A stretch of 64,000 nt of DNA from positions 1,736,001 through 1,800,000 of the forward strand of contig NZ_CP049156.1 in the NCBI RefSeq assembly GCF_011493005.1, in the 5' to 3' direction. Position 1 is the stretch's first letter, and the number at the start of each line of letters is the position of its first letter. The notes below the pieces were generated by a model, which searched no databases, had not been told where the DNA came from, and worked only from the letters and a program-made list of their open reading frames with translations. The translations under genes and the position numbers were made by a program. Origin of the DNA: Caballeronia sp. SBC1 (lineage in GTDB: Bacteria; Pseudomonadota; Gammaproteobacteria; Burkholderiales; Burkholderiaceae). This document shows, piece after piece, positions 17,776 through 64,000 of this stretch.

Positions 17776-17831
17776 ATGAGCCACGGTAGCCCGCGTGTTG
17801 TTTTTGGCGCGCGGGGTTATCAATCAACTAA

Positions 17832-41919: not shown

Positions 41920-42089
41920 TTTCGTCTCCTCTCTCGTGTCATCTCGGCAACGCGTTCGCCCACGCGACCGGCTTACCAGGTGGTCATCATAGCTTTCTTC
42001 TTTTTTAGATACAAATCGTACCGTTTATTGTAAATGTGGATTGACGATGGGTTGATATTATTTTATCTTTCCGCATGAGCTGCACTTTT

Positions 42090-42106
42090 CGGAACCAGAC
42101 GTTCCG
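42090..42106. promoter_or_regulatory. Palindrome CGGAAC-N5-GTTCCG in the xsc copy 2 leader
   Basis: The same element as at 37589-37605, 28 bp upstream of the ATG at 42135. Upstream on the same strand is the AT-rich block TGATATTATTTTATC. Confidence 0.5.
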
Positions 42107-42134
42107 TTTTATCGATAAATCAGGAGACACCACC

Positions 42135-43964: not shown

Positions 43965-44006
43965 GCGTTTGAGCTTCCGAGGGTTCAGGCTCTCGTGGAA
44001 CCCGAC

Positions 44007-44039
44007 GTGCTGGAAACGGACCGCTGCCGTTTCCAGCAC
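44007..44039 (+). terminator. Strong hairpin between xsc copy 2 and pta
   Basis: A perfect 13-bp stem (GTGCTGGAAACGG / CCGTTTCCAGCAC) with a 7-nt loop lies 42 bp after the xsc stop and 34 bp before the pta ATG. No good T-run follows, so it may be a partial terminator or an mRNA-stabilising structure that sets the xsc to pta ratio. Confidence 0.55.
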
Positions 44040-44072
44040 CATACAGTCTTTGGCAACCGTGACCGAGTACCC

Positions 44073-45092
44073 ATGAAGCCGATTAACCGCATCATCGAGC
44101 GCGCCCGCATTCATCCTATGCGTATCGTACTGAGCGAGGCGGAGGACCCGCGGATTCTCCAGGCGGCGCAACGTGTGACTTTCGAACGCATTGCCCGAGT
44201 GATTTTGGTGGGGGACGTCACGCGTATTCTTCAAGTGGCGGCCAGTGAGGGCATAGATCTGACCGGCATCGAACTGGTGGACCCATCCACTTCGCCGCTT
44301 GCACCATCCTTGTACCAATGCCTCTTCGAGCTGCGATGCGGCAAGGGCATGACGCTGGATGACGCGAAGCGGGAAGTGCTTAAACCTCTCTGTTTTGTTA
44401 ACCTGATGGTGCGCCTCGGTCATGCCGATGGTTCGGTATCGGGAGCTGTCAACACCACCGCCGACGTGGTTCGTACAGCTATCCAGATCATCGGTATCGA
44501 CCCGTCGTTCAAGCTGGTTTCCAGCTTCTTCCTGATGATGTTGTGCGAACCTTTCCATACGCTCAAGGGCGGCCTTATCTTCTCCGATTGCGGGTTGGTC
44601 GTGGACCCGAATGCGGACGAGCTGGCCCAGATCGCCATGGCGGCCGCAGATAGCGCGCAGAACCTTTTGATGGATGAACCGCGCGTGGCCATGCTGTCAT
44701 TCTCGACAAGCGGTAGCGCCCGGCATGCGGCGGTCGACAAGGTCGTGGAAGCAACGCGTCTGGTCAGGCTGCAACGCCCGAACCTTGCTATTGATGGCGA
44801 CGTGCAGCTCGACGCGGCGATCGTCGCCGAGATCGCCGAACGCAAGATCGATCACTCGAATGTGCACGGCCGGGCCAACGTGCTGGTCTTTCCGAGTCTC
44901 GAGGCCGGCAATATCAGCTACAAGCTGGCGGAAAGGGTAGGCGGTGCAAAGGCGATCGGCCCGTTGTTGCAAGGCCTTCGAAAACCCGCCAACGATCTGT
45001 CACGCGGCTGCAGCGCAGACGACATTTATTACGTCATTGGCGTGACCGTCGTGCAGGCACAAGCGACATTGGACACCACACAAAACACTTGA
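44073..45092 (+). CDS. pta: Phosphate acetyltransferase
   Basis: A 339-residue PTA_PTB-domain enzyme that converts acetyl phosphate and CoA to acetyl-CoA. Landmarks are IVLSEAEDPRILQAA near the N-terminus, GHADGSVSGAVNTTADVVRTA, FSTSGSARH and the C-terminal ANVLVFPSLEAGNISYKL. It is a short Pta without the N-terminal regulatory domains of the E. coli enzyme, as usual for pta genes linked to xsc. The ATG at 44073 is taken from family alignment; the frame is open from 43995 through the hairpin. It completes the path from sulfoacetaldehyde to central metabolism. Confidence 0.9.
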   Translation: MKPINRIIERARIHPMRIVLSEAEDPRILQAAQRVTFERIARVILVGDVTRILQVAASEGIDLTGIELVDPSTSPLAPSLYQCLFELRCGKGMTLDDAKREVLKPLCFVNLMVRLGHADGSVSGAVNTTADVVRTAIQIIGIDPSFKLVSSFFLMMLCEPFHTLKGGLIFSDCGLVVDPNADELAQIAMAAADSAQNLLMDEPRVAMLSFSTSGSARHAAVDKVVEATRLVRLQRPNLAIDGDVQLDAAIVAEIAERKIDHSNVHGRANVLVFPSLEAGNISYKLAERVGGAKAIGPLLQGLRKPANDLSRGCSADDIYYVIGVTVVQAQATLDTTQNT

Positions 45093-50750: not shown

Positions 50751-51512
50751 TTACCCCTCCTGTTCCTCGCGCCCGGGTCGAGCGCCAATGTATTCGTAGT
50801 TCTCGGTGTTCAGCCGGGACACGCGAAGCTCGACCGCGCACCGATGATACGAGTACGCAATCCGCTGGATTTCCAGCAGCGGTGTGCCGGGGTCGAGGGA
50901 CAGCTGCTCGCTTTCGAGTTCGTTCGCGAGCGCGACTCTCACACGTTCGTCCGTTTCGACCACGTTGATCGCAAACACGTCCTGATAGAAGTTGTAGAGC
51001 GTATTCGGACGATTGCGCAGCTTCGCTTCGGTCAGCCCCGGAAAACGTGCCTCCGGAACCGTGATGTGTTCGATCAGGACGGTCGCACCGTGCAGCGCAA
51101 GGCCGTTGGTAAACTGAAACACGCGTGCGCCGGTTTCTATGCCGAGCGCCACCGCGGTTTCGCGCGAGGCGCGCGCCTTGCGGAAATCGATGAGCGTAAC
51201 AACGGGATACGCTTTCTCTCCGTCTCGCCTGACAATCCGGAAAAAGCGGAAAAAGTGGCGATCGCGCTGATGCATGGAGACGAACGTCCCCAAGCCCTGA
51301 TGCCGGATCAGGATGTTCTCGGCGCAGAGTTCGTCGATCGCTTTGCGCAACGTGCCAATAGACACGCCGAATCGTTCGGCCAGGCGCTTTTCGGAAGGAA
51401 TGCATTCGCCGCCTTTCCATTCGCCCGCCGAAAGCGCCATCAGGATGGCGCCCTTGACTTCCTTGTACCGCGTGCCGCCGAGCGACGGCGGAGTGATGGC
51501 GAGCGTGCTCAT
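50751..51512 (-). CDS. GntR/HutC-family regulator with UTRA domain
   Basis: A 253-residue regulator with an N-terminal GntR winged helix (EVKGAILMALSAGEWKGGE; LAERFGVSIGTLRKAIDEL) and a C-terminal UTRA ligand domain (GARVFQFTNGLALHGATVLIE to IQRIAYSYHRCAVELRVSR). The ATG at 51512 is preceded by AGAGG; another ATG at 51527 is in frame. It is divergent from the reductase/hydratase operon. A CATAYAGATGA element lies in that intergenic region and again twice before suyAB and the ABC operon, so this protein is the best candidate for common control of all three. Confidence 0.87.
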   Translation of the reverse strand: MSTLAITPPSLGGTRYKEVKGAILMALSAGEWKGGECIPSEKRLAERFGVSIGTLRKAIDELCAENILIRHQGLGTFVSMHQRDRHFFRFFRIVRRDGEKAYPVVTLIDFRKARASRETAVALGIETGARVFQFTNGLALHGATVLIEHITVPEARFPGLTEAKLRNRPNTLYNFYQDVFAINVVETDERVRVALANELESEQLSLDPGTPLLEIQRIAYSYHRCAVELRVSRLNTENYEYIGARPGREEQEG

Positions 51513-51846
51513 AAAAACCTCTGACATGCGCGAGTTGCGTCGAATTAAGTCCGTGATGTCCTTCCGTTCTTCCGTTTGGGACTCGCTCCAATTTTAAACG
51601 ACAAACTCATATAGCACATATAGATGAGATGGTTTTTGTGTGTTTGTCGATACAGGGAATTCACCCTATGCGAGGTGGCCTGATTCCGCGCCATGCATGG
51701 TCACGCATCCTCACGCATCGTTCCGCGCAGGCCAAGAAACCCTTGTCCTCGAATGAAGAATTATTGGCTTTTCAAGGAGCCGAGCGTCGCTTTAATCTGA
51801 CGATCAGCCCATATTCCAAAGCTAATTAATCAGGCGTTTATCCCCC
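51513..51846. other. Divergent promoter region, GntR gene / reductase-hydratase operon
   Basis: No gene of its own is supported. CATATAG occurs twice 9 bp apart (51608-51614, 51617-51623), with CACATATAGATGA at 51615-51627 shared exactly with 61468-61480. An AT-rich stretch (TTTTAAAC, near 51593) may be part of the GntR promoter. Confidence 0.5.
51608..51628 (+). promoter_or_regulatory. Candidate GntR operator, shared 13-mer element
   Basis: CATATAG-CA-CATATAG-ATGAG. Outer bases also form a CTCAT/ATGAG inversion (51607-51611 and 51624-51628). The 13 bases CACATATAGATGA recur exactly upstream of suyA in the same orientation relative to transcription. Confidence 0.55.
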
Positions 51847-52581
51847 ATGCAGCCCTCCGTCAGCGACTCGCTGAGCGTGCGCGTCTGGCGCGGTGCCGAA
51901 GACGGCGCGTTCGAACCGTTCAAAGTCCCGCGCCGCGAAAGCCAGACCGTGCTCGATGTAGTGACGTTTATCCAGCGCAGTATCGACGCCACGCTGTCTT
52001 ATCGCTTCGCGTGCCGTGTCGGTATGTGCGGTTCGTGCGCGATGACCGTGAACGGCCGTGCGCGCTGGACCTGCCGCACGCACGTCACGAAAGTGCTTCG
52101 CCATGCGGGCGACGTGCTCGAGATCGCGCCGCTGAACCACCTGCCGATCGTGAAGGATCTAGCGGTCGACATGACCACGTTCTTTGATAAATGGCGCGAT
52201 GCAAAAGGCTATTTCGCGGGCAACCGCGACCGCAGCGCACCGCTTGAATTGATCGATCCCGCATCACGTGAACGGCAGGCCGCCGACGCGGGCATCGAGT
52301 GCATTGGTTGCGGCGTGTGTTACGCGAGTTGCGATGTGGTCGGATGGAAACCGGACTATCTTGGACCGGCAGCGCTAAACCGGGCATGGACGCTCGTGAA
52401 CGACGTCCGAGACGTTCAGCAGGGCGTGCGCCACGAAGCGGTATCGAACGATGCGGGCTGCCACTCCTGCCATACGCTTGGTTCGTGTACCGAACGTTGT
52501 CCCAAAGCATTGGCACCAACCGCGAGCATTGCGGGCCTCAAGCGCGCGGGCCGCCAGACGCCGAAAGGAGGGACACGATGA
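51847..52581 (+). CDS. Succinate dehydrogenase/fumarate reductase-type iron-sulfur subunit
   Basis: A 244-residue FrdB/SdhB-like protein. The plant-type [2Fe-2S] site is C56, C61, C64 and C76 in CRVGMCGSCAMTVNG; the [4Fe-4S] site is CIGCGVCYASC (152-162); the third cluster site is around C205-C218 (CHSCHTLGSCTERCPK). It passes electrons between the flavoprotein and the membrane anchors. It is first in an operon running iron-sulfur subunit, two anchors, hydratase alpha, hydratase beta, flavoprotein, unlike the normal sdhCDAB order of the TCA cycle enzyme. The anchor gene overlaps by ATGA. Confidence 0.88.
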   Translation: MQPSVSDSLSVRVWRGAEDGAFEPFKVPRRESQTVLDVVTFIQRSIDATLSYRFACRVGMCGSCAMTVNGRARWTCRTHVTKVLRHAGDVLEIAPLNHLPIVKDLAVDMTTFFDKWRDAKGYFAGNRDRSAPLELIDPASRERQAADAGIECIGCGVCYASCDVVGWKPDYLGPAALNRAWTLVNDVRDVQQGVRHEAVSNDAGCHSCHTLGSCTERCPKALAPTASIAGLKRAGRQTPKGGTR

Positions 52582-52922
52582 ACGTCACACTCAACGGATG
52601 GTGGCTGCAACGCATGTCCGCGATGGTGCTCACGCTCTGCGTCGCGGTGCATCTCGCGACCATGATCTGGGTGGTGCATGGCGGCCTGCGCGCAGCCGAT
52701 GTGATCTCGCGCCTGCACGGCAACCTCGCGTGGGGCGCTTTCTACGCGGTCTTCGTGGTCGCGGCGTCCGTGCATGTGCCCGTGGGCTTGCGCCGTATCG
52801 CCGATGAATGGCTCAACTGGCGCGATGCGTGGGCCGGACGGGCCAGCGTGATCGTAGGCATCGCGCTGGCATTGGCGGGCCTGCGCGCGGTCTATGCGCT
52901 GATTGCGGGAACGCCGGCATGA
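52578..52922 (+). CDS. Membrane anchor subunit of the dehydrogenase/reductase (first)
   Basis: A 114-residue protein with three hydrophobic helices (about residues 12-34, 50-70 and 88-108). HLATMIWVVHGG and SVHVPVGLRRI contain His residues placed to bind heme or quinone. It overlaps both neighbours by ATGA junctions. It matches small SdhC/SdhD-type anchors in size and topology. Confidence 0.75.
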   Translation: MNVTLNGWWLQRMSAMVLTLCVAVHLATMIWVVHGGLRAADVISRLHGNLAWGAFYAVFVVAASVHVPVGLRRIADEWLNWRDAWAGRASVIVGIALALAGLRAVYALIAGTPA

Positions 52923-53302
52923 GTACAAGTCACCGCGCCGTCACGCCAGGACGCAAGCTGGATTTCCGTGCGCGTAACCACCCCGCGTGGTGGGCGTTCC
53001 TGGTCCATCGCGTGTCTGGACTTGGGCTGGCGTTCTTCCTGCCCGCGCATTTCTGGGCGCTCGGCACGGCGCTGCATGGCGCTGCGCCGTTCGACTCTTT
53101 CCTGGCCGTCACGCGCGCGCCCGCATTCGTGTTTGCGGAGTGGGGCCTCGTCACGTTGCTGGCGGCTCACCTGATCGGCGGCGTACGGCTGTTGCTGATC
53201 GAATTTCGTCCGTGGAGCGGCTTGCGCAAGGATCTGATCGCGGCGACGGTAGGCGGCGCCTTTGTGATTGGAATGGCGTTTGCGCTGTCACTGACGCTGT
53301 AA
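52919..53302 (+). CDS. Membrane anchor subunit of the dehydrogenase/reductase (second), SdhC-like
   Basis: A 127-residue protein with three hydrophobic helices and the SdhC-type motif AFLVHRVSGLGLAFFLPAHFW near residues 26-45, where His and Ser/Arg line the quinone and heme site. It forms the cytochrome b part with the preceding gene. The hydratase alpha gene follows 41 bp later. Confidence 0.8.
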   Translation: MSTSHRAVTPGRKLDFRARNHPAWWAFLVHRVSGLGLAFFLPAHFWALGTALHGAAPFDSFLAVTRAPAFVFAEWGLVTLLAAHLIGGVRLLLIEFRPWSGLRKDLIAATVGGAFVIGMAFALSLTL

Positions 53303-53343
53303 GACTGACGCATGTACGCATGCGTGCTTTTGAAGAGGTATCC

Positions 53344-54237
53344 ATGGAAACGACAACGGATTTCACGGTCGATTATGCGTTGATCGAAGAGATCGCGAAA
53401 ACGCTTTATATCCGCTCGCTGAAGCAACTTCCGCCTGACATCAAGGAGGGCATCGCGAAGCTCGAAGCTGGAGAACGCAACGATACCGCGCGGCGCGTGC
53501 TTGGCACGATGCGTCAGAACATTGTCGTCGCGGAGCAGGCTGACAACCTGTTGTGCCAGGACACCGGGATCCCGATCTACAACGTAACTATCGGGCAGGG
53601 CGTGCAGTTCGACGGCATGCGTCTGAAGGCCGCAATTCGCCGCGGTTGCGAGCGCGCGACACATGAACATCCGCTGCGTTCATCGGTTGTTCATCCGCTC
53701 ACGCGGCATAACGAGCAGAGTTCGTGCGGCGCGGAAGTGCCCGTGATCCACGTCGATTTCGACGATACCCCGGAGACGCTGTCCATCGAGATGATCCCGA
53801 AGGGAAGCGGCTCGGAGAACAACTCGTTTCTTCGCATGGCGATTCCAGCGGAAGGGGTCGACGCCATCCGGCGCTTCGTGATCGACTGTGTGGTCGACGC
53901 AGGCGGTAAGACCTGCCCGCCGACGATTGTCGGCGTGGGAATCGGCGGCACGTCCGACCTGTGCGTGGCGCTCGCGAAGCGCGCGGCTACGCGGCCGCTC
54001 GGCACGCATTGCCACGATGAACACGGTGCGGCGCTCGAGCGCCAGTTGTCGGCTGCCGTCAATCAGTTGGGTGTCGGGCCGCAAGGACTTGGCGGCGACG
54101 CGACGGCATTCGCGGTTCACATCGAGCTGGCTGCCACACACATCACGATGAACCCTGTTGCAGTGAACATGCAATGCCATTCGGCACGGCGGGCGCGTGC
54201 AACCGTGAACGCTCAGGGAGTCGGCTATGGCTACTGA
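53344..54237 (+). CDS. Class I fumarase/tartrate dehydratase-type hydratase, alpha subunit
   Basis: A 297-residue iron-sulfur hydro-lyase subunit. The three likely [4Fe-4S] cysteines are C71 (LCQDTGIPIYN), C191 (GGKTCPPTIVGVGIGG) and C278 (VNMQCHSARRA). Other family motifs are MIPKGSGSENNS and the GGDATAFAVHIE segment. Size and motifs fit FumA/TtdA-type alpha subunits, which add water across the double bond of fumarate-like acids. It lies inside a succinate-dehydrogenase-like operon, so the dehydrogenation product is the likely substrate. Fumarate is the default; 3-sulfoacrylate is proposed from the neighbours. Confidence 0.87.
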   Translation: METTTDFTVDYALIEEIAKTLYIRSLKQLPPDIKEGIAKLEAGERNDTARRVLGTMRQNIVVAEQADNLLCQDTGIPIYNVTIGQGVQFDGMRLKAAIRRGCERATHEHPLRSSVVHPLTRHNEQSSCGAEVPVIHVDFDDTPETLSIEMIPKGSGSENNSFLRMAIPAEGVDAIRRFVIDCVVDAGGKTCPPTIVGVGIGGTSDLCVALAKRAATRPLGTHCHDEHGAALERQLSAAVNQLGVGPQGLGGDATAFAVHIELAATHITMNPVAVNMQCHSARRARATVNAQGVGYGY

Positions 54238-54862
54238 CACGCTGCCGACCGGCACGCATTACACGCTCGACATGCCGGTGAGCGAAGAACAGATTCGTGC
54301 ATTACGCATAGGCGACACGGTCACACTCAACACCACGCTGTTTGGTATCCGCGATGCCACGCAGATCCATATGTTCGACCACAAGCGCACGACCCGGTTC
54401 GATTTGCGCGGCCATGCCGTGATCCATACCGCGCCGAACGTGCGACGGGTTGAGGTGTCTGCACAGAACCCGGCGGGGTACGAACCGGTCTGCGTCGGCA
54501 CGACCACTTCCGCACGCATGGAGCGCTTTACCGCGCCGCTGATGCAAACGTATGGTGTACGGATCGTGATCGGCAAGGGCGGTCTTGGAGCGGCATCGAG
54601 TGCGGCGTTTGTCGAGTTCGGCGGGGTATATCTCGCGATAGTCGGTGGCACGGCGGCGCTCGAGACTACGTGGATTGAACAGATAGAGGACGTGGACCTG
54701 GACGACCTCAATCCCGAATCGCTCTGGCGCTTCAGGATTCGCGACTTCGGCCCGCTGCTCGTCGCCATGGATAGCCACGGCGGCAGTCTCTATACGGCGG
54801 TCCAGCAGAACACGAAAACGCAGCGTGACGCGGTGCTCGCGTCGCTCGGCATCCGAACCTGA
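54227..54862 (+). CDS. Class I fumarase/tartrate dehydratase-type hydratase, beta subunit
   Basis: A 211-residue partner of the alpha subunit, which it overlaps by 11 bp. Motifs of the FumA C-terminal/TtdB domain are LRIGDTVTLNTTLFGIRDATQ, VSAQNPAGYEPVCVGTTTS, IGKGGLGAASSAAF and IVGGTAALETTW. It contributes substrate carboxylate-binding residues in this family. The split into two genes is typical of archaeal and many bacterial class I enzymes. Confidence 0.87.
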   Translation: MATDTLPTGTHYTLDMPVSEEQIRALRIGDTVTLNTTLFGIRDATQIHMFDHKRTTRFDLRGHAVIHTAPNVRRVEVSAQNPAGYEPVCVGTTTSARMERFTAPLMQTYGVRIVIGKGGLGAASSAAFVEFGGVYLAIVGGTAALETTWIEQIEDVDLDDLNPESLWRFRIRDFGPLLVAMDSHGGSLYTAVQQNTKTQRDAVLASLGIRT

Positions 54863-54888
54863 ACATTTAGCATCACGAATCAAAGCCC

Positions 54889-56625
54889 ATGAAACAGCTC
54901 GATACCGACATCCTCATCCTGGGCAGCGGCGGCGCTGGCCTCTTCGCCGCGCTGCACGCGCAGGCCGCGGCGCCGCAATTGCGCATCACCGTGGCCGTGA
55001 AAGGGCTGCTCGGCAAGTGCGGATGTACGCGCATGGTGCAAGGCGGTTACAACGTCGCGCTCGCGCCGGGGGATTCTATCGAGCGGCATTTCATGGACAC
55101 GATCGAGGGCGGGAAGTGGCTCTCGAACCAGGATCTTGCGTGGATGCTGGTGACGGGCGCCATCGAGAGAATTCGCGAACTCGAAAACGAGCTGGGCTGT
55201 TTCTTCGATCGCAATCCCGACGGCTCCGTGAGGCAAAAAGCATTCGCCGGGCAGACCTTCGACCGCACCGTGCACAAGGGCGACCAGACCGGTATCGAGA
55301 TCATCAACCGCCTGGCGGAACAGGTATGGGCGCGGGGTATCGACAGGCTGGAGGAGCATCGGGCCGTGGAGTTCATCCACAGCCGCGACGGCAAGTCGCT
55401 TGCCGGTGTGCTCATGATCGACATGCGCAGCGGCGAGTTCGTGTTCGTGCGCGCGAAGGCCGTGCTGCTAGGAACGGGTGGCGGTCCGACCATGTATCGA
55501 TACCACACGCCCAGCGGTGATAAAAGCTGCGACGGCATGGCAATGGCATTGCGCGCCGGTCTCACGCTGCGTGACATGGAGATGGTGCAGTTCCATCCCA
55601 CGGGGCTGCTTGCCGGCGCGCATACGCGTATGACAGGCACCGTGCTCGAAGAGGGTTTGCGTGGCGCAGGCGGTTACCTGCTCACCGGTGCGGGCGAGCG
55701 TTTCATGCACGCGTACGACTCGCGCGGAGAGCGCGCGACACGCGACGTGGTGTCGCGAAGCATCTTCCGTGAACTGCGCGCCGGACACGCTACGCCCAAC
55801 GGCGGCGTTTATCTGCAGATGCATCACCTCGGCGCCGATAGCGTGCGCAAGCGCTTCAAGGGCATGGTCGAGCGTTGCGAGGATTGCGGTTTCGATCTCG
55901 CGGGAGGTCTGGTCGAAGTCGTGCCGACGGCGCACTACATGATGGGCGGTGTCGTCTTCGAGCCAAGCTGCGCGACCACGTTGACTGGGCTCTTTGTAGC
56001 GGGTGAAGACGCGGGCGGTGTGCACGGCGCGAACCGGCTGGGCGGCAACGGCGTGGCTAATTCGACCGTGTTCGGCGGTATCGCGGGCGACACGCTCGCG
56101 CGCTGGGTGCCGCAGCATGCTGACTACGCTGACATTGATACAGACGCGGTCAACGCAGCGATTGCCCGTTGCAACCGTCCGCTGAACCAACCACGGGGCG
56201 ACCTTGAGGCCATCCGCGATGCACTCTCAGAACTCATGTGGAACGATGTCGGCATTTTGCGCGATGCAAAAAGACTTCAGCGCGCGAAGCAGCAACTCGT
56301 TGAGCTTGAAGCGCAACTTGACCGCACCGGAATCGATGGCCGCGACTTGCGTTTCAACCTCTCATGGCACGACTGGATGAACCTGCGCAACCTGATCCTC
56401 GTGAGTCGCGCGATCACCGAATCCGCGTTGATGCGCGAGAACTCGCGAGGTGCGCATTATCGTGAAGATTTTCCGGAGGCGGGCGCGCTGGAGACGTCCG
56501 AATACATGTGCGTCCGGCTTGAGGGCAACACGTTCGCCACCAGCCGAGAACGCGTTCAGTTCACGCGGGTTCGGCCGGGGGAGTCGCTGATTGAAGAAGA
56601 GAGTTCGGCGGTATCGATGAAATGA
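54889..56625 (+). CDS. Succinate dehydrogenase/fumarate reductase-type flavoprotein subunit, lacking the FAD-linking His
   Basis: A 578-residue FrdA/SdhA-like flavoprotein. The FAD-binding Rossmann motif is ILILGSGGAGLFAALHAQ. Substrate residues expected in the family are present: His236 in QFHPTGL, Glu254/255 in LEEGLRGAGG, the proton-transfer Arg285 in ERATRDVVSR, His349 in PTAHYMMGG and Arg383 in HGANRLGGN. The His that normally carries covalent FAD (in SHTVxAQGG) is replaced by Cys46 in CGCTRMVQGG, so the FAD is probably not covalently linked in the usual way. This sets it apart from the TCA enzyme. It closes the operon, and its 3' end overlaps the converging LysR gene by 70 bp. Confidence 0.87.
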   Translation: MKQLDTDILILGSGGAGLFAALHAQAAAPQLRITVAVKGLLGKCGCTRMVQGGYNVALAPGDSIERHFMDTIEGGKWLSNQDLAWMLVTGAIERIRELENELGCFFDRNPDGSVRQKAFAGQTFDRTVHKGDQTGIEIINRLAEQVWARGIDRLEEHRAVEFIHSRDGKSLAGVLMIDMRSGEFVFVRAKAVLLGTGGGPTMYRYHTPSGDKSCDGMAMALRAGLTLRDMEMVQFHPTGLLAGAHTRMTGTVLEEGLRGAGGYLLTGAGERFMHAYDSRGERATRDVVSRSIFRELRAGHATPNGGVYLQMHHLGADSVRKRFKGMVERCEDCGFDLAGGLVEVVPTAHYMMGGVVFEPSCATTLTGLFVAGEDAGGVHGANRLGGNGVANSTVFGGIAGDTLARWVPQHADYADIDTDAVNAAIARCNRPLNQPRGDLEAIRDALSELMWNDVGILRDAKRLQRAKQQLVELEAQLDRTGIDGRDLRFNLSWHDWMNLRNLILVSRAITESALMRENSRGAHYREDFPEAGALETSEYMCVRLEGNTFATSRERVQFTRVRPGESLIEEESSAVSMK

Positions 56626-57473
56626 CGCTTCACTGCATCGGTGAATGCTTGCCGGGGATGATCGCGCCGTTCAAGCAAACCGACGTGACGCGGCGTGATT
56701 TGCTCGGGGAGCGGCGTGACACGCAAGCCGGACTCGCGGGTCCAGTTCGCGTTGGCAAGCAGGGGCACGATCGATACGCCAAAGCCGCGCCGCACCATCT
56801 CCGAGATGGCCTCTATCGAGTTGAGCTCCATGATTTCATCGCGGGCAAAACCGAGTTGCCGAAGGGCATTGTCGACAAGGACGCCGGTCCACGTATGGCG
56901 GTCGAAGCGGATGAAGGGTTCTTCAAGCAGCGCTTCGATTGAAGCGTCCGGATCATTGGCGGATGAGATGAAAACCATCGGTTCGCTGTACAGCACCGTC
57001 CACTTCAACGCGGCCGGTAACGCAGCGGGTGATTGCGTGACGATAGCCGCATCGAGTTCGCCGTTCTCCACGCGCGCTGCAAAGTCGCTCGACAAACCCG
57101 TGAACAGTTTCAGATCCAGACGCGGATAGCGTTGCTTGAGTTTGAGCATGGCATCGGCGAATGCGCCCATCAGCGAGGAGACGAGGGCGCCAACCCGCAC
57201 GGTGCCCGACAGTTCGCCGGCGTTACCCGTTGCGAGAATCTGCCGATAGTTTGCCACCAGTGTTTCCGCCAGCGGCAGCACTGCGCGGCCCTGCGCGCTG
57301 AGGGATACGGAGCGCGCGGCGCGATCGAAGAGAACCAGATCGAGATCGCGCTCGAGCGAACGCATTTGCAAGCCGACAGCGGCTTGCGTGAGACAGACTT
57401 CGTCGGCGGCGGCAGCGAACGAACCGTGCTTCGCCACTGAGAGAAACGTCACGAAATACCGGATTGCGCTCAC
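56556..57473 (-). CDS. LysR-family transcriptional regulator
   Basis: A 305-residue LysR protein: winged helix in FLSVAKHGSFAAAADEVCLTQAAVGLQMRSLE (positions about 9-40), then a type 2 periplasmic-binding-like effector domain. A GTG start at 57473 follows AAAGGGAG. It begins 12 bp after the TauE gene on the same strand, so it is cotranscribed as the last gene of the ABC-tauE operon. Its C-terminal codons overlap the end of the flavoprotein gene by 70 bp. Confidence 0.88.
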   Translation of the reverse strand: MSAIRYFVTFLSVAKHGSFAAAADEVCLTQAAVGLQMRSLERDLDLVLFDRAARSVSLSAQGRAVLPLAETLVANYRQILATGNAGELSGTVRVGALVSSLMGAFADAMLKLKQRYPRLDLKLFTGLSSDFAARVENGELDAAIVTQSPAALPAALKWTVLYSEPMVFISSANDPDASIEALLEEPFIRFDRHTWTGVLVDNALRQLGFARDEIMELNSIEAISEMVRRGFGVSIVPLLANANWTRESGLRVTPLPEQITPRHVGLLERRDHPRQAFTDAVKRHFIDTAELSSSISDSPGRTRVN

Positions 57474-57485
57474 GACGACTCCCTT

Positions 57486-58244
57486 TCACTGCAGTGCATG
57501 CCGCAGCGACGAACCGAGCAGCGCCACGCCCGACGCGAGCAGCAAGACAAAAAGCATGCGGCGAAACGCGTGCTCCGAGAGGCGCAAATAAAGCCGCGAC
57601 CCGAGCCACGCGAACAGCAACGACGAAGGCATCATCCACGCGAACAGCATAAGCGTCTCAGCAGAGATGAGTCCGTTCACGCTGTACATGACAAGCGTCA
57701 GCGTCTGCATCACGATGAAGAACGTCTGGCAGATCGCGCGTTGCGAATCCTTCGGGTAACCCCGCAACATGCACCATACCGTGGGCGCCGGACCCACGAG
57801 ACCGGCTATTCCCCCAAGGATGCCGCCGATTACGCCGATGCCGCCGTCCGCGAGCATGCTGCGGGTTGCGCTGATAGTGATCGTCGGCAGATTCGCCGCC
57901 AGCAGCATCAGGCCGCAATACACGATCAGCAGCACACCCACCCCCAACCGAAACACAACGGGGTCGAGCCAGGGCAACAACGCCGCCCCAATAGGCACGC
58001 CAATCAGCCCGCCCGCTAGCATGGGTGCGATCAGCTTCACACGGATGCTGCGCCGCACGGTCCCGACCGTCAGCACCTGCCCTCCAAGCGAACCGACCAC
58101 GAGCATCGGCCCGATCATTTGCGGTGGTAGCGTCCACGCCCAGAAGACCATCGCGACAAGCCCGAATGCAAAACCGGCCAGGCCCGAGACGAAGCCCGCG
58201 ATCGCGCTCCCTCCAATCACCAGGAACACGAGGTTGGCGGTCAA
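57486..58244 (-). CDS. TauE/SafE-family sulfite exporter
   Basis: A 252-residue membrane protein with about eight hydrophobic segments and two internal repeats. Family sequence FVSGLAGFAFGLVAMVFW opens the N-terminal half, and GGIGVIGGILGGIAGLVGP starts the second. The start is a TTG at 58244 with CCGGAG upstream; nearby GTG codons are alternatives. Family members export sulfite or sulfoacetate, protecting cells that release sulfite from sulfonates. It follows the ABC permease gene by 22 bp, tying sulfite removal to import by this ABC system. Confidence 0.83.
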   Translation of the reverse strand: MTANLVFLVIGGSAIAGFVSGLAGFAFGLVAMVFWAWTLPPQMIGPMLVVGSLGGQVLTVGTVRRSIRVKLIAPMLAGGLIGVPIGAALLPWLDPVVFRLGVGVLLIVYCGLMLLAANLPTITISATRSMLADGGIGVIGGILGGIAGLVGPAPTVWCMLRGYPKDSQRAICQTFFIVMQTLTLVMYSVNGLISAETLMLFAWMMPSSLLFAWLGSRLYLRLSEHAFRRMLFVLLLASGVALLGSSLRHALQ

Positions 58245-58266
58245 TGCGCGGCGCTCCGGAATCGCA

Positions 58267-59175
58267 TCAGGACTGCATGCCCCAGCGCTGCACCGTATGG
58301 CGTTCCAGTACCCGGAAGATCAGATTCTCGACGGCAAGCCCGATCAGGATCACCGTAAAAAGCCCGGCGAAGACGTTGGCGATATCGAGCATATTCTTGT
58401 TCTCATAGATGAACCATCCGAGCCCGCCCGAGCCCGCACTCACGCCAAACACGAGCTCGGCTGCGATCAACGTGCGCCACGCAAACGCCCAGCCGATCTT
58501 CAGGCCAGTCAGGATGCTCGGGAACGCCGCGGGCACGAGAATCTGCAGCACATAGCGGCCGCCGCGCAAACCGTAGTTCCTGCCGACCATCTTGAGCGTG
58601 TTGCTGACCGAGAGAAAGCCTGAATGTGTGTTCAGCGCCACCGACCACGTGACTGAATGCACCAGTACGAAAATGAGGCTGCCATTGCCCAGGCCGAACC
58701 AGATCAGCGCGAGCGGAAGCAACGCAATCGCGGGCAGCGGATTCAGCATGGACGTCATGGTCTCTAGAAAATCGGTGCCGATGCGCGAAGTGATTGCGGC
58801 CGCAGTGAGGGCAGCGGCGAGCACGATCCCGCAGGCATAACCGATCAGCAATACATGGATCGATGCCCACGCCTTGCCCGGCAACTCGCCGCTTGCAATG
58901 CTCCTGAAGAACGCTTCAATGGTCGCGCTAAAGGTGGGAAACAGCAGCGGATTGTTCAGCCAGCGACCGTAGATCTCCCAGATACCCGCCAGCAGCACGA
59001 GAATCATCAGCTTGCGAATCCATGCCTGGTTGTAGAGCCGTTCGAACAGCGACAGCGGCTTTTCCACCACGCTGAATTCGCGCGTTTCAGCCGGCTCGCG
59101 GACCACTTCGGAGCGTGGCACGACCGCCGCCTGTTTGCGATGACCGGAACCGCCGTGCGTGAGCATGTCAGACAT
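58267..59175 (-). CDS. ABC transporter permease, nitrate/sulfonate/taurine type
   Basis: A 302-residue permease of the SsuC/TauC family with a cytoplasmic N-terminus of about 55 residues and six hydrophobic segments. The EAA-like loop is seen near VSNTLKMVGRNYGLRGGRYV. Its ATG at 59175 overlaps the ATPase gene by 8 bp. It is the second ABC system of this type in the window and differs clearly from TauC. Confidence 0.88.
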   Translation of the reverse strand: MSDMLTHGGSGHRKQAAVVPRSEVVREPAETREFSVVEKPLSLFERLYNQAWIRKLMILVLLAGIWEIYGRWLNNPLLFPTFSATIEAFFRSIASGELPGKAWASIHVLLIGYACGIVLAAALTAAAITSRIGTDFLETMTSMLNPLPAIALLPLALIWFGLGNGSLIFVLVHSVTWSVALNTHSGFLSVSNTLKMVGRNYGLRGGRYVLQILVPAAFPSILTGLKIGWAFAWRTLIAAELVFGVSAGSGGLGWFIYENKNMLDIANVFAGLFTVILIGLAVENLIFRVLERHTVQRWGMQS

Positions 59176-59965
59176 TTTCGGCCCTCTCTATTTCGTCTTC
59201 GAACAGCATGTGCTGGATGCGCTTTTCAAGCGCAATGGCGGCTTCGGGCGTTGCGGCGGTTTCCAGTTCCGCCTTGACCTGACCGGGGTGAGGCGAGAGC
59301 AGCAAGATCCTGCTGCCGACCTTGATAGCCTCGGGAATGGAGTGCGTGACGAACAGCACGGTGAAGCGCGTTTCATCCCAAAGCGCGAGGAGTTCGTCCT
59401 GCATCTTGCGTCGCGTGAGGGCGTCGAGCGCGGCGAACGGTTCGTCCATCAGAAGAATGTCCGGTTCCATTGCCATCCCGCGCGCAATCGCAACGCGCTG
59501 CTTCATGCCGCCCGATAGCGTATGCGGATAGCTGTCGGCGAACGCGGAGAGATTGACCTTGTCGATGTAATGCATCGCACGGTCCTCTATCTCCTTGCCA
59601 TTGAGCCGACGAGACGCCTGCAACGGAAACATCACGTTCTGCCGCACGGTTTTCCACGGCAGCAACTGGTCGAATTCCTGGAACACCATCATCCGGTCTG
59701 GCCCCGGACGCGTGACCGTCTTGCCCTTCAGCGAGATCGTGCCTTCAGTGGGCGCGAGATATCCGCCGACACTCTTGAGCAACGTCGACTTGCCGCAGCC
59801 GGACGGCCCGAGCAGGACGAACCGGTCGCCGCGAAACACTTCGAAGTCCACACGATACGTGGCCATCACGAGTGTCTTTGGCGTCTTGTACTGGAGTGTG
59901 ACGCCGCGTACCGCGAGCAGCGGCGAGGTGTCGGGGTAGGGGGCGGTATCTGGCGCAGCGCGCAT
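59168..59965 (-). CDS. ABC transporter ATP-binding protein, nitrate/sulfonate/taurine type
   Basis: A 265-residue ABC ATPase: Walker A GPSGCGKST, signature LSGGMKQR, Walker B LLMDEPFAALDA, switch His in LFVTHSIPEA. It overlaps the permease gene and starts two bases from the end of the binding-protein gene, so the three are tightly coupled. Confidence 0.9.
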   Translation of the reverse strand: MRAAPDTAPYPDTSPLLAVRGVTLQYKTPKTLVMATYRVDFEVFRGDRFVLLGPSGCGKSTLLKSVGGYLAPTEGTISLKGKTVTRPGPDRMMVFQEFDQLLPWKTVRQNVMFPLQASRRLNGKEIEDRAMHYIDKVNLSAFADSYPHTLSGGMKQRVAIARGMAMEPDILLMDEPFAALDALTRRKMQDELLALWDETRFTVLFVTHSIPEAIKVGSRILLLSPHPGQVKAELETAATPEAAIALEKRIQHMLFEDEIERAENV

Positions 59966-59966
59966 G

Positions 59967-60986
59967 TCAGCTTCCTTGCAGGGATTGAGTGACGGGAAAA
60001 AACATGTCCTTCCACGATTGCGGTTTGGACTTGATAAGTCCCGTGCGCGCCATGAAGTCGGCGTATTTAATGGTGTTCTGGGGGACCGTGGTGAAGGACA
60101 CGTCGGGCGAGGAAATCATCTTCTCCACTTCATCCACCGTGCTTTTTTCCTTCGATATCCGCAGGTACGCAACCGCCGCCGCATGCTTGTCCCGGTTGAT
60201 CCACGCTTCCGATTCATTGAGTGCATCCATGAACGCTTTTACGAGTTTCGGGTTCTCGTTATAAAAGCGTGCCGTGCACCAGACCAGGTTGAAGCTCGAC
60301 TTGCCGCCGAGCACGTCATAGGAGTTGAGCACGGTATGCACGTTCGGTTTTTGCAGCTCCTGTTCCTGGAACGGCGGCGAGCCGAAGTGCGCTGTGACTT
60401 CGCTGCTGCCCGACATCAACGCCTGCTGCGCGTCCGGGTGAGAGAGCGAGACCGTGTACTTGTCGAGTTGCCCCTGATTGCCCGTACCGAACGCTTTTTC
60501 CGCAGCCATTTGCAGCGTGATTGCCTGGATGGATACCTTGGCCGCCGGCAGCGCGATCTTGTCCTGACCTGTGAAGTCCTTGAGGGTCTTCACTTTTGCA
60601 TTGGTCGTATTTAACAGCAGCGGCATGGAGTTGATCGCCGCCAACGCCTTCACTTCGACCGGCGTTCCCTGCGTGCGCGACCACAACAACACAAGCGGCG
60701 CAACGCCTCCCGAGGCGATCTGCAGCGAGTTGGAGAGCAGGGCGTCGTTCATCACGTTGCCGCCCGCGAACTCCACCCATGAGACCTTGAGGCCGGTGAT
60801 ACCGGCTTGCGCGGCATGTTTTTCGAAGAGCTTCTGGTCCTGCATGATCATGAGCGGCAGATAACTGACCCCGTATTGCCGCGCGATCTTCACTTCGCTC
60901 AGTTCCGCGCGGGCAGTCCCTGTCGCGAGCGTGGCAGAGAGCGCGCACGCTACGCCGATCATTCGAAAGAATCTTTTCACGTTCAT
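59967..60986 (-). CDS. ABC transporter substrate-binding protein, NMT1/SsuA-like
   Basis: A 339-residue periplasmic binding protein with a Sec signal (residues 1-27, cleavage after ARA). The mature part shows the NMT1/THI5-like pattern: VKIARQYGVSYLPLMIMQDQ, LQIASGGVAPLVLLWSRTQG and SGSSEVTAHFGSPPFQ. It is the first gene of the operon binding protein, ATPase, permease, TauE, LysR. Linkage to TauE and divergence from suyAB argue for a sulfonate ligand such as 3-sulfopropanoate or 3-sulfolactate, which is inference. Confidence 0.87.
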   Translation of the reverse strand: MNVKRFFRMIGVACALSATLATGTARAELSEVKIARQYGVSYLPLMIMQDQKLFEKHAAQAGITGLKVSWVEFAGGNVMNDALLSNSLQIASGGVAPLVLLWSRTQGTPVEVKALAAINSMPLLLNTTNAKVKTLKDFTGQDKIALPAAKVSIQAITLQMAAEKAFGTGNQGQLDKYTVSLSHPDAQQALMSGSSEVTAHFGSPPFQEQELQKPNVHTVLNSYDVLGGKSSFNLVWCTARFYNENPKLVKAFMDALNESEAWINRDKHAAAVAYLRISKEKSTVDEVEKMISSPDVSFTTVPQNTIKYADFMARTGLIKSKPQSWKDMFFPVTQSLQGS

Positions 60987-61342
60987 TGCTGACGACCCTG
61001 TGGGTTGTGAAAGCGCCAGTCAGGCGCGCAAGCAAAGCGGGAGTCAAGACGTAATCAAGGCGCTACTCAAGACGCGAGCGGACGGCCTTTCATTCGCGGA
61101 GGATGGTTGATCGCACAGAGGATCTGAAGCGGACCGAACGTGATGACTGATGACGCGCGGGTGCGAAAGCAGCCCACGGATGAAGGGACAGGTGCAAGCG
61201 TCATGCGTGTCTCCTGTTGCCGGTCGTGTCTCTTGGAGCGCATGTCTTGAGCTCAATGCACGCCCGCTTTTTCGCTCATTCCGGTCACATGTTTCTTGTG
61301 CGTCCGGAACCGTACTACGGAACAGATCAAAACCCTGTGTTA

Positions 61343-61360
61343 TTTAGGTCATCTGTATGA
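61343..61360 (-). promoter_or_regulatory. CATACAGATGACCTAA element facing the ABC-tauE operon
   Basis: On the minus strand it reads TCATACAGATGACCTAAA. It matches the suyA copy in 14 of 15 core bases and is oriented the same way relative to its operon. Confidence 0.55.
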
Positions 61361-61467
61361 GTTCGAAGTCTATGCGATGAATTCCGTGAAAGCAAATTGG
61401 GGGAAACGCGGCATTTATCCGACCCCTTTTGAAAAAGCGTGTACTAATGGAAAACACTCATCCAACA

Positions 61468-61484
61468 CATATAGATGACCTAGT
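61468..61484 (+). promoter_or_regulatory. CACATATAGATGACCTA element upstream of suyA
   Basis: Its first 13 bases are identical to 51615-51627 before the reductase/hydratase operon. It ends one base before the -35 hexamer of the suyA promoter, a typical activator or repressor position. Confidence 0.6.
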
Positions 61485-61485
61485 T

Positions 61486-61514
61486 GACATCGATATATCT
61501 GCCGCCTAATATCG
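61486..61514 (+). promoter_or_regulatory. Sigma-70 promoter of suyAB
   Basis: TTGACA, a 17-bp spacer and TAATAT, a close match to the consensus, 74 bp upstream of the suyA ATG. Confidence 0.7.
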
Positions 61515-61587
61515 ATTCAACGCAGCGTACTTGGCTCGCTGCCCGCGCGGGACGCACACCGCTTTCAACACACGAACGGAGACGCTA

Positions 61588-61932
61588 ATGAGCAATCCCA
61601 CGGCAGACATCAACAGCACGGCAGAGGCGGGTACAGCGCCCGAGCGCACGACTATTCATATCGTGTTGCATGAGGCGAAAGACACAGTCGGCGTGGCTGT
61701 TGTCGAGGGCATCAAGGCGGGAACGCAGCTCAACGCGTGGATCATGGACGACGATGAAATTGTGACGTTCCCGGCCAAGCAGGACATTCCTATCGGCCAT
61801 AAGGTCGCGCTAAAGGACATGGCTGTCGGCGACACGGTCTTCAAGTACGGCGTAGATATAGGCAAGGTGGTCGCACCCATCAGCGCCGGCGAACACGCTC
61901 ATGTGCACAACATCAAGACCAAGCGCTGGTAG
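61588..61932 (+). CDS. suyA: Sulfolactate sulfo-lyase small subunit SuyA
   Basis: A 114-residue SAF-domain protein: HIVLHEAKDTVGVAVVEGIK, then QDIPIGHKVALKDMAVGDTV and a C-terminal AGEHAHVHNIKTKRW. This corresponds to the N-terminal domain of UxaA-type dehydratases as a separate subunit, the known form of SuyA. The ATG at 61588 follows CGGAGAC. With SuyB it eliminates sulfite from (R)-3-sulfolactate to give pyruvate. It is preceded by a strong promoter and a shared operator-like element. A sugar-acid dehydratase small subunit would look similar, but the sulfonate context favours SuyA. Confidence 0.85.
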   Translation: MSNPTADINSTAEAGTAPERTTIHIVLHEAKDTVGVAVVEGIKAGTQLNAWIMDDDEIVTFPAKQDIPIGHKVALKDMAVGDTVFKYGVDIGKVVAPISAGEHAHVHNIKTKRW

Positions 61933-62031
61933 CCGGCCGGCACGCGCCACGCCGATGCGTGACATTGCCCGATCTTATTCCCGGAATTGAACCGGGCTGA
62001 ACCAAACGACGAACCGAACGAGAGACACACC

Positions 62032-63207
62032 ATGAGCGTGATTGACCTGGATACGATTTTCCGCGGCTATCGTCGCGACAATGGCCGCGTCGGCGTGCGC
62101 AACCACGTGATCATCCTGCCGGTCGACGACCTGTCGAACTCGGCGGCGCTGGCGGTCGAGAACAACATCAAGGGCACGATGGCGCTGCCCCATCCGTATG
62201 GGCGCCTGCAGTTTGGTGCCGACCTCGACCTGCATTTCCGCACGCTGATTGGCGCCGGCAGCAATCCGAACGTCGCGGCGGTGGTCGTGATCGGTATTGA
62301 GGAAGGCTGGACCAAGCGAGTGGTGGATGGCATTGCCAAGACGGGCAAGCCGGTGATGGGCTTCGGCATTGAACTGCATGGTGACCACGACACCGTCATG
62401 CGGGCGTCGAAAGCGGCGAAGGAGATGGTGCAGTACGCAACCGCGCTTCATAGAGAGGAATGTCCGATCTCGGATCTGTGGGTGTCCACCAAGTGCGGCG
62501 AGTCGGACACCACTTCCGGCTGCGGCTCGAACCCTACCGTGGGCAATGCTTTCGACAAGCTATACGGTCTCGGCACCACCCTCGTGTTCGGCGAGACCTC
62601 CGAACTGACAGGCGGTGAGCAGATCGTGGCCGCGCGTTGCGCCAACGACGGCGTGCGCGAGCGCTTCCAGTTCATGTTCGACCGCTATCAGGACATGATC
62701 AACCGCTGGAAAACGGACGATCTTTCCGAGTCGCAGCCGACCAAGGGCAACATTGCGGGCGGCCTGACGACCATCGAGGAAAAGGCGCTCGGCAATATCC
62801 AGAAGATCGGCAAGAAGTGCATGGTGGACGGCGTGCTCGACAAAGCGGAGGAGCCAACACATCCGGGCCTCTGGTTCATGGACTCATCGTCGGCGGCAGC
62901 AGAAATGGTGACGCTGTGCGCGGCGTCGGGCTTCGCGGTGCACTTCTTCCCGACGGGCCAAGGCAACGTGATCGGCAATCCGATCGTACCTGTCATCAAG
63001 ATCTGCGCGAACCCGCGTACAGTGCGTACGATGAGCGAGCATATCGACGTGGATGTGTCGGGTATTCTGCAGCGCGAGCAGAATCTCGACCAAAGCGGCG
63101 ACAAGCTGCTCGAATGCATGCTCGCTACCGTGAACGGCCGCTTCACGTCGGCGGAAGCGCTCGGGCATCGCGAGTTCGTACTGACCCGGTTGTTCGAAAG
63201 CGCCTGA
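62032..63207 (+). CDS. suyB: Sulfolactate sulfo-lyase large subunit SuyB
   Basis: A 391-residue UxaA-family lyase domain. Motifs are [20 protein letters not shown] at the N-terminus, [20 protein letters not shown], the metal/active-site region [36 protein letters not shown] and [20 protein letters not shown]. The ATG at 62032 follows GAGAGAC; the frame to 61987 is less likely. It lies 99 bp after suyA on the same strand. Family relatives are altronate and galactarate dehydratases, which carry the SAF domain fused; a separate small subunit is the SuyAB layout. Confidence 0.87.
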
Positions 63208-63360
63208 GGATCAAGCGGCGGGGTCTGTGCGGGATCTGACCAGACAGTGAACCCCGGCGCGCGCCGGCACGGAGAAGGCACACGCCACCCGTGCCGGCAC
63301 ACCCATGCCGCAAAGGCGCCGGCTCGACATGTAGCGGCAGCGAGTGGAGGAGACACCATC

Positions 63361-64000
63361 TTGCGCGTGCTGAAACATCTATACGTGCAAGTCCTGATCG
63401 GACTTGCGGCCGGCGTCGTTGTCGGTTATTTCGCGCCTTCGTTCGGCGTGGAAATGAAGCCGCTCGGCGACACCTTCATCCGTCTCATCAAGATGCTGAT
63501 CACGCTCGTGATCTTCTGCACGGTCTCCGTCGGCATCGCGCGAATGGAAAGCCTCAAGCAGGTGGGCCGCGTCGGTTTCAAGACGTTGCTCTACTTCGAG
63601 GTGATGACCACCATTGCACTGGTGATCGGGCTGGTCGTGGCGAACGTGCTGCACCCCGGCGCGGGTCTGAACATTGATCCGGCCACGCTCGATCCCCATG
63701 CGATCTCTCACTATGTAGCGGACGCGCATGCGGCATCGTCGAGTTTCTTCGAATTGATCGTGCCCAACTCGGTAGTGGGTGCATTCGCGCGCGGTGATCT
63801 CCTGCAGGTGCTGTTGTTCTCGGTGCTCTTCGGCATTGCGCTCTCAATCATGTCGCAGCGCAGCCGGCTGCTGATGCGCGGGATCGAGCAATTCGGCGAA
63901 GCGCTCATGAGCATCGTCGGCATGATCATGCGGCTTGCACCGCTCGGCGCATTCGGCGCGATCGCATTCACGGTCGGCAAATACGGCATTTCGACCTTGC
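63361..64000 (+). CDS. Dicarboxylate:cation symporter (DctA/GltP family), N-terminal part
   Basis: The frame is open from a TTG at 63361, preceded by GGAGGAG at 8-nt spacing, to the window edge, so the gene is incomplete. The 213 visible residues show the DAACS pattern: an N-terminal helix VLKHLYVQVLIGLAAGVVVG, then FIRLIKMLITLVIFCTVSVGIA, and later SSFFELIVPNSVVGAF and RLAPLGAFGAIAFTVGKYG. These carriers import C4-dicarboxylates with protons or sodium. It lies about 150 bp after suyB and may import a dicarboxylate-like sulfonate or a C4 acid that helps growth. Confidence 0.85.
   Translation, partial: MRVLKHLYVQVLIGLAAGVVVGYFAPSFGVEMKPLGDTFIRLIKMLITLVIFCTVSVGIARMESLKQVGRVGFKTLLYFEVMTTIALVIGLVVANVLHPGAGLNIDPATLDPHAISHYVADAHAASSSFFELIVPNSVVGAFARGDLLQVLLFSVLFGIALSIMSQRSRLLMRGIEQFGEALMSIVGMIMRLAPLGAFGAIAFTVGKYGISTL

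Follow-up and report, generated by a model that had tools for sequence, protein, structure and literature searches.

3-Sulfopropanoate (3-sulfopropionate) is succinate with one of its carboxylates exchanged for a sulfonate. According to PMC11489063 (2024), it is a by-product of bacteria using homotaurine as a nitrogen source, and Enterococcus gilvus forms it on sulfoquinovose or dihydroxypropanesulfonate. The same paper cites a thesis by J. Mayer (Konstanz) in which Roseovarius nubinhibens ISM degrades 3-sulfopropionate via sulfoacrylate and sulfolactate, and states that bacterial degradation is otherwise unreported; the mechanism in Bilophila is still called unclear in a 2026 review (PMC12890257), and passages of PMC11659671 and PMC12330013 mention the compound without an aerobic route. 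In the open literature, where coverage of subscription journals is mostly lacking, we found no assignment of genes to a 3-sulfopropanoate route. Here we describe a gene cluster of Caballeronia sp. SBC1 (genome of 8.85 Mb) within a 64,000-nucleotide stretch of contig NZ_CP049156.1 (positions 1,736,001 to 1,800,000; hereafter the window), in which a succinate dehydrogenase-like complex, FrdABCD, and a fumarase-like hydratase share a neighborhood with the sulfo-lyase SuyAB. The cluster probably degrades 3-sulfopropanoate aerobically through a sulfonate copy of succinate-fumarate-malate chemistry.

The closest described C3-sulfonate pathways have sulfolactate as their hub. SuyAB was identified in Cupriavidus pinatubonensis strain JMP134 (PMC12890257), and (R)-sulfolactate is the isomer that it accepts (PMC12890257, PMC12421959). 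With the SuyAB pathway that employs SlcC and ComC (Chromohalobacter, Paracoccus) and with the HpsN/HpsO route of C. pinatubonensis, the window cluster has SuyAB, SlcC, ComC, GntR, exporter genes and the sulfolactate hub in common. Those routes start from cysteate, dihydroxypropanesulfonate, sulfosugars or sulfolactate itself, whereas in the window cluster sulfolactate would be supplied by a complex II-like dehydrogenase and a hydratase. The metabolite order is the one cited for R. nubinhibens, for which the citing passage of PMC11489063 gives neither enzymes nor genes; a preliminary description of the window, which knew of no described pathway with these steps, was in this respect too strong. 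The metabolite order is not wholly new, and the gene set is new within known C3-sulfonate degradation.

At the center of the cluster, a complex II-like operon (FrdB, two anchors and FrdA) encloses a two-subunit class I hydratase. On the forward strand, an FrdB-like iron-sulfur subunit (51847–52581; TIGR00384 dhsB, 192 bits, cut-off 88) is followed by an SdhD-like membrane anchor (52569–52922; Pfam Sdh_cyt, 30.6 bits, cut-off 25.8) and an SdhC-like cytochrome b anchor (52922–53302; TIGR02970, 54.7 bits, cut-off 52.3), each with three hydrophobic segments. Next come the alpha subunit of a class I fumarase-type hydratase, a proposed 3-sulfoacrylate hydratase (53344–54237; Fumerase PF05681), its beta subunit (54227–54862; Pfam Fumerase_C) and an FrdA-like flavoprotein, the proposed 3-sulfopropanoate dehydrogenase (54889–56625; FAD_binding_2 and Succ_DH_flav_C). 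From frdB to frdA, genes overlap or lie at most 41 bp apart. Open frames and family searches agree with the gene positions and families of the preliminary description, which had also taken this complex II-like set, interleaved with the hydratase, to be paralogous: FrdA has six other matches in its own genome at 26–38% identity, and is 32% identical to the succinate dehydrogenase (SdhA)-type copy L090.

FrdABCD resembles complex II (succinate dehydrogenase / fumarate reductase) in its four-subunit architecture, cofactor motifs and catalytic residues, with flavoprotein, three-cluster iron-sulfur subunit and anchors in one operon. The two small anchors are of the SdhC/SdhD type, and cysteine motifs for all three clusters, read by eye, are kept in FrdB. 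Alignment of FrdA with Escherichia coli FrdA shows that His236, Arg285, His349 and Arg383, which we take to be catalytic or substrate residues of complex II, are likewise kept. In contrast to complex II, the FAD-linking His is replaced by Cys46, leaving FrdA without the His of covalent FAD attachment; an inserted basic loop carrying Arg247 precedes Glu254, which stands at the position of a substrate-site Thr, and Gly388 occupies that of a Ser. FrdA also scores below the curated SdhA/FrdA cut-offs, its best matches being TfrA (513 of 718 bits) and sdhA_frdA_Gneg (429 of 567 bits).

These substitutions recur throughout the relatives of FrdA. Arg247 and Glu254 are kept in 72/72 loci (identity of at least 50% over more than 300 residues), and Cys46 in 69/69 relatives, a tally that, like those of the hydratase below, covers proteins above thresholds of 50–55% identity and 70% cover other than the window's own loci (L001, L087, L089). 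None of the three signature residues is found in two SdhA-type proteins encoded by the same genome (L090 and L091, both of which have the FAD-linking His) or in its NadB-type protein L093. The signature extends across phyla to Methylobacterium, Rhodococcus, Paracoccus, Pseudomonas, Sulfitobacter and two haloarchaea, with Lys in place of Arg247 in Sulfitobacter sp. THAF37 and both haloarchaea. We read FrdA as a member of a distinct family and the signature as a likely sign of changed substrate; that the basic residue of the inserted loop contacts the sulfonate is a guess. Databases name close relatives fumarate reductase or L-aspartate oxidase (among the 120 listed from 8000 scored candidates). 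Identity as an L-aspartate oxidase was considered and rejected, as the genome has the NadB-type L093 without the signature.

The hydratase shares its fold family and its Fe-S, Arg, His and Lys residues with two-subunit class I fumarase and with L-tartrate dehydratase TtdAB. Both subunits carry the Fe-S and substrate residues of the two-subunit class I fumarase, and among relatives the CQDTG motif, Arg112 and His266 of the alpha subunit are identical in 82/82 and Arg42, Arg97 and Lys117 of the beta subunit in 79/79. The alpha subunit passes the PRK06246 cut-off (298 versus 276 bits). Unlike those enzymes, the window hydratase sits inside a Frd operon and has a beta subunit below every listed cut-off, including that of PRK06043 (127 versus 269 bits). 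One other class I hydratase was found in the host genome, at 31% identity.

Further along the forward strand lie SuyA, the small subunit of a putative (R)-sulfolactate sulfo-lyase (61588–61932), and the large subunit SuyB (62035–63207, with a possible alternative in-frame upstream TTG start at 61987). SuyA has no Pfam match and was assigned from its position 5′ of SuyB and its 75% identity (96 residues) to the C. pinatubonensis small subunit encoded next to hpsNO. SuyB belongs to the GD_AH family (GD_AH_second and GD_AH_C) and is 86.7% identical to the SuyB encoded beside hpsN and hpsO on a plasmid of C. pinatubonensis HN-2, compared with 29–36% to UxaA/GarD-type paralogs of its own genome; on both counts the earlier suyAB assignment holds. 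Neither Frd nor hydratase genes occur in that HN-2 stretch. By homology, SuyAB would cleave (R)-sulfolactate to pyruvate and sulfite.

The association of the hydratase with SuyB was quantified in 250 genomes of the order, with calls at no less than 65% identity to the alpha subunit and no less than 60% to SuyB (six SuyB rows of 36–40% and FumA rows of 29–38% fall outside these counts). The hydratase occurs in 33 genomes, spanning 11 family labels, and SuyB in 44; 32 genomes have both, and SuyB is present in 12 of the 217 that lack the hydratase (Fisher p 2.5e-29, not corrected for relatedness). The two genes are at most 15 kb apart in 27 of the 32, on different draft contigs in four and 1.9 Mb apart in one. 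A phylum-wide sample of 398 genomes contained the hydratase in two, the window's own and G607, both among the 15 with SuyB. Within the phylum, another family has the hydratase in 10/248 genomes (at least 71% identity to the Methylobacterium protein; 12 matches less two at 37–39%), and nine of these ten also have SuyB, three in the fetched stretch and six elsewhere, the tenth genome being 73% complete. The grouping of these genes is far beyond chance, and only one partner depends on the other: SuyAB can be found without the set, but the window-type set is almost never found without SuyAB.

Neighborhoods were mapped, with per-gene identity floors, for the best 80 of 255 related hydratase loci, many of them short; the closest found are from Paraburkholderia. 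FrdA is present in 73, ComC in 34 and SlcC in 28. The preliminary description would have been undermined by related clusters consistently lacking suyAB, tauE and sulfonate transporters; beyond the 32 of 33 genomes with SuyB, the map holds SuyB in 35 loci, an ABC permease in 31 and one of two TauE types in 35. Among the longer loci (19.4 kb or more; 41 in total), SuyB is included in 27, and a real SuyB lies elsewhere in the genome for 12 of the remaining 14. Genes resembling those of the SoeABC sulfite dehydrogenase stand just upstream of frdB in L009, L015 and L041, and partly in L011. As a control, 20 loci with SuyB only, likewise read with per-gene identity floors, have SlcC (15), ComC (18), GntR (17), HpsN (4) and HpsO (6), whereas FrdA, FrdB, hydratase alpha, a thiamine diphosphate (ThDP) enzyme and TauE are all absent from them; the control consists of loci rather than genomes, as L147 is from G388, which has a set of the second hydratase type elsewhere (L171). 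Overall, the initial observation was right, and is stronger than could be seen from the window alone. Separately, a ThDP-dependent enzyme of ~545 aa, acetolactate-synthase-like and below listed cut-offs, adjoins the Frd-hydratase set in 22/80 loci (for example L071 at ~13.4 kb and L097:17475–19100).

The association is also seen on plasmids. FrdA had 18 plasmid matches, with neighborhoods read for those other than M. radiotolerans CP090580, M. oryzae, P. ferrooxidans, C. necator N-1 and NT-25. Methylobacterium radiotolerans pMRAD01 holds the whole putative route in one run: FrdB, two anchors, hydratase alpha and beta, FrdA, a ThDP enzyme, TauE, SuyA and SuyB, together with symporter, SlcC-like, Ldh-family and GntR genes. 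On two further Methylobacterium plasmids hydratase alpha and SuyB are ~7 kb apart, and on pRHL1 of Rhodococcus jostii RHA1 the FrdA (52% identical) and hydratase alpha (49%) lie 14–18 kb from ComC-, SlcC- and SuyAB-like genes.

Paracoccus versutus pTAV3 encodes an FrdA of 64% identity with the full signature. The class I hydratase after it is about one-third identical and stems from a different lineage; beyond it lie genes for a YeiH-type exporter, TauE, LysR, ComC-like, SlcC-like and HpsO-/HpsN-like proteins, SuyA, SuyB, a sulfate exporter and a sulfite oxidase. Judged by sequence, FrdA was retained here and its hydratase partner exchanged for one from a different class I lineage. Of the 13 second-type loci that we inspected, all except L159 and L169 include at least one of TauE, a YeiH-type exporter and a sulfite dehydrogenase (11 loci). 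Some second-type loci have a nearby MmsA-like, CoA-acylating semialdehyde dehydrogenase (L156:12325–13815, L162 at 5.6 kb, L171 at 3.8 kb), of which the Pseudomonas copy scores 695 bits to the CoA-acylating methylmalonate-semialdehyde family (cut-off 448). A small NIPSNAP-family protein also adjoins the second type (L152:13636–13950, L156:14051–14377, L158:13383–13697).

XcbC of bacterial coenzyme M synthesis, a member of the fumarase/aspartase superfamily, forms sulfoacrylate. Two haloarchaea encode members of the FrdA family near FrdB, TauE and a UxaA-type pair, with a gene for an argininosuccinate-lyase-like protein lying between FrdA, TauE and the UxaA genes (L160:7275–8777, L163:7200–8702). 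The Haloarcula protein passes the argH cut-off and scores 257 bits to XcbC NF052535, below its cut-off of 575; XcbC relatives adjoin FrdA in both haloarchaea, but XcbC has a different reaction direction and no counterpart in the window. The large archaeal UxaA subunits are 35–36% identical to the window SuyB and fall outside the SuyB group in a quick tree, so the archaeal case is only suggestive. That the FrdA family constitutes, in bacteria and haloarchaea alike, a branch of complex II devoted to 3-sulfopropanoate dehydrogenation, pairing repeatedly with sulfoacrylate-handling partners (at least two class I hydratase lineages and an argininosuccinate-lyase/XcbC-like enzyme), and that in the second lineage water may add beside the sulfur to release sulfite and malonate semialdehyde directly without a sulfo-lyase, is a broader proposal that we consider rather unlikely as a whole. 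Hydratase replacement and possible direct desulfonation are the newest part of this work.

On the reverse strand between frdA and suyA are a LysR regulator (56556–57473; Pfam), a TauE/SafE family membrane protein (57486–58244; PF01925, 110 bits, cut-off 32.6) and an ABC importer of permease (58267–59175; Pfam BPD_transp_1), ATPase (59168–59965; Pfam) and SsuA-like substrate-binding protein (59967–60986). The preliminary description had called these a sulfonate-type importer with TauE/SafE; the TauE family is clear, but the sulfonate type is not borne out by the scores. The binding protein reaches 98 bits to TIGR01728 SsuA_fam against a cut-off of 163.5, and permease and ATPase, whose best NCBIfam matches are SaoP and SsuC and nitrate and taurine types, respectively, are also under the NCBIfam sulfonate cut-offs. 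TauE, which has no match in the three closest relatives (L006–L008) or in the 20 SuyB-only loci, may export sulfite, as the preliminary description had it, or carry a sulfonate; a TauE-type protein has been named a probable 3-sulfopropionate exporter (PMC11489063). Downstream of suyB, a DctA-like sodium:dicarboxylate symporter on the forward strand (63247–64000; Pfam SDF) continues past the window, its complete frame being 481 aa (L151).

The same strand past the window end encodes SlcC-like and ComC-like dehydrogenases, a 976-aa molybdoprotein, a ferredoxin-type Fe-S protein and a DmsC-type anchor. The last three presumably have the make-up of SoeABC sulfite dehydrogenase; no export signal is visible in the SoeA-like molybdoprotein, and the fit to SoeABC is one of family make-up, as distinct from a comparison with characterized SoeA. 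The ComC-like protein scores 211 bits to NF040650 (L-sulfolactate dehydrogenase, cut-off 500) and 356 bits to Ldh_2. SlcC, ComC and SoeABC functions are putative and assigned by homology. At the other end of the cluster, a GntR/UTRA regulator (50751–51527, reverse strand; Pfam GntR and UTRA) is divergent from frdB. Among 46 mapped genes for its relatives, SuyA is a close neighbor (<700 bp) in 27 and FrdB in three, and GntR flanks frdB in the window and its three closest relatives; because it mostly flanks suyA elsewhere and frdB here, it is as if one sulfolactate regulator now serves both cluster ends. A search for exact inverted repeats upstream of frdB and suyA (20 upstream regions) gave no convincing shared palindromic operator.

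Elsewhere in the window are a transporter (16486–17787) whose counterpart in the hpsN/hpsO cluster of C. pinatubonensis, an MFS carrier, is 58% identical, a gene for a phosphate acetyl/butyryl transferase (43995–45092) and two 629-aa frames on opposite strands (35731–37620 and 42075–43964) with near-equal weak ThDP-enzyme matches (26–27%), perhaps a duplicated gene.

Together these genes suggest a route for which 3-sulfopropanoate is the most economical substrate. It would be imported by the SsuA-like ABC importer and/or the symporter and oxidized by FrdABCD to 3-sulfoacrylate, with electrons passing to quinone, and the class I hydratase would add water to give 3-sulfolactate. Chemical reasoning favors the isomer that SuyAB uses: L-malate is labeled S, but with CH2-SO3H in place of its CH2-COOH the same arrangement is labeled R, and fumarase geometry in the hydratase should accordingly give (R)-3-sulfolactate. 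SuyAB would then form pyruvate and sulfite, a reaction known for the family, the SlcC-/ComC-like enzymes could open use of the other sulfolactate isomer, and sulfite may be oxidized in the cytoplasm by the SoeABC-like enzyme or exported by TauE, if the latter is not itself a sulfonate carrier. Roseovarius nubinhibens ISM, by comparison, is not known to use SuyAB for sulfolactate degradation. The succession via 3-sulfoacrylate and 3-sulfolactate given in the preliminary description is strongly supported as gene logic by co-occurrence, while its substrate and two new reactions stand as proposals.

Two other readings accept the gene families but change their substrates. The dehydrogenase and hydratase could form a C4-dicarboxylate module, an alternative succinate dehydrogenase with fumarase, that neighbors an independent sulfolactate module and shares regulators and transporters with it by chance. 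Family names for succinate and fumarate enzymes, and the database names of close FrdA relatives among the matches listed, favor such a pair, yet the 32/33 linkage and 27/32 proximity speak against it, as does the absence of the FrdA signature from the SdhA- and NadB-type copies of the same genome. The 20 SuyB-only loci without FrdA, FrdB or hydratase alpha point the same way, since they indicate that SuyAB does not need the set but that the set needs SuyAB; chance adjacency is accordingly quite improbable. A similarly slight chance attaches to sulfosuccinate or another larger sulfonate as the substrate, converted via sulfofumarate to sulfomalate, with SuyAB-type cleavage to oxaloacetate and sulfite. 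The enzyme families and SuyAB linkage would be the same, and the ThDP enzyme beside the set in 22/80 loci and 0/20 SuyB-only loci may mean that some hosts use a larger substrate. Against this stand the 87% identity of SuyB to one in a dihydroxypropanesulfonate cluster, the recurrence of SlcC-/ComC-like dehydrogenases with SuyB and the lack of a ThDP enzyme in the window cluster, where the sole ThDP-like matches (26–27%) lie at least ~7 kb upstream of the GntR gene.

Several observations weigh against degradation of 3-sulfopropanoate through sulfolactate as we propose it. Glu at the substrate-site Thr position would be a surprising choice for an enzyme whose substrate is more anionic, barring compensation by the inserted Arg/Lys, and both the importer components and the ComC-like protein score below the relevant cut-offs, the latter far below. 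The set occurs without a real SuyB in the genomes of L036 (a 38% UxaA relative only) and L039, and in G211 and the 73%-complete G720. Among second-type loci, SuyB is missing from the seen stretch of 12/13, an MmsA-like dehydrogenase is near 3/13 versus 0/41 long window-type loci (p 0.012), and three of four genomes searched have no SuyB match at E 1e-30. On the supporting side, Paracoccus wurundjeri grown on sulfofucose shows increased levels of nine proteins encoded in an 11-gene 'fumarate and tartrate' cluster that includes a TauE gene, proteins that the authors linked to the Krebs cycle (PMC12421959); this support is tempered in that taking 'cluster 3' for such a module is our own suggestion. 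The gene order of L126 was considered as identifying 'cluster 3' and dropped, as the named Paracoccus loci differ in order.

The second-type counts imply that the product need not be sulfolactate everywhere. Were water instead to add beside the sulfur, the product would be the bisulfite adduct of malonate semialdehyde, which would decompose into sulfite and malonate semialdehyde, and SuyAB would serve only other sulfonates. The scarcity of SuyB and the MmsA-like genes of the second type fit such opposite hydration, as does the presence of an exporter or sulfite dehydrogenase in 11/13 of these loci. For the window-type hydratase, however, the tie to SuyAB is near complete. Moreover, 2/12 second-type genomes have SuyB elsewhere, on another contig in G388, the fourth genome searched, and on another plasmid in P. 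seriniphilus; and L169, with HpsN- and HpsO-like genes and a frame that we read as ComD-like (rather than a library match), points to sulfolactate and sulfopyruvate. We consider this alternative very improbable for the window. The pathway might also run in reverse, so that dehydration of sulfolactate and subsequent reduction would yield 3-sulfopropanoate and dispose of electrons. FrdA variants without a covalent FAD link can reduce fumarate, but their succinate oxidation is poor, and FrdA lacks the covalent-FAD His. TauE could export the resulting 3-sulfopropanoate (PMC11489063), but an importer and sulfite-oxidizing genes adjoin, sulfolactate is already consumed by SuyAB, the two anchors are of SdhC/SdhD type and the set is found in organisms taken as aerobes (Methylobacterium, haloarchaea), which makes reversal extremely improbable.

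Genes for an aerobic 3-sulfopropanoate route would help to close a gap in known degradation. If the proposed route is true, complex II chemistry extends to sulfonates, the database names fumarate reductase, fumarate hydratase and L-aspartate oxidase of these proteins need correction, and marker genes for metagenomes are gained. Direct desulfonation in the second hydratase lineage, if true, would need no sulfo-lyase.

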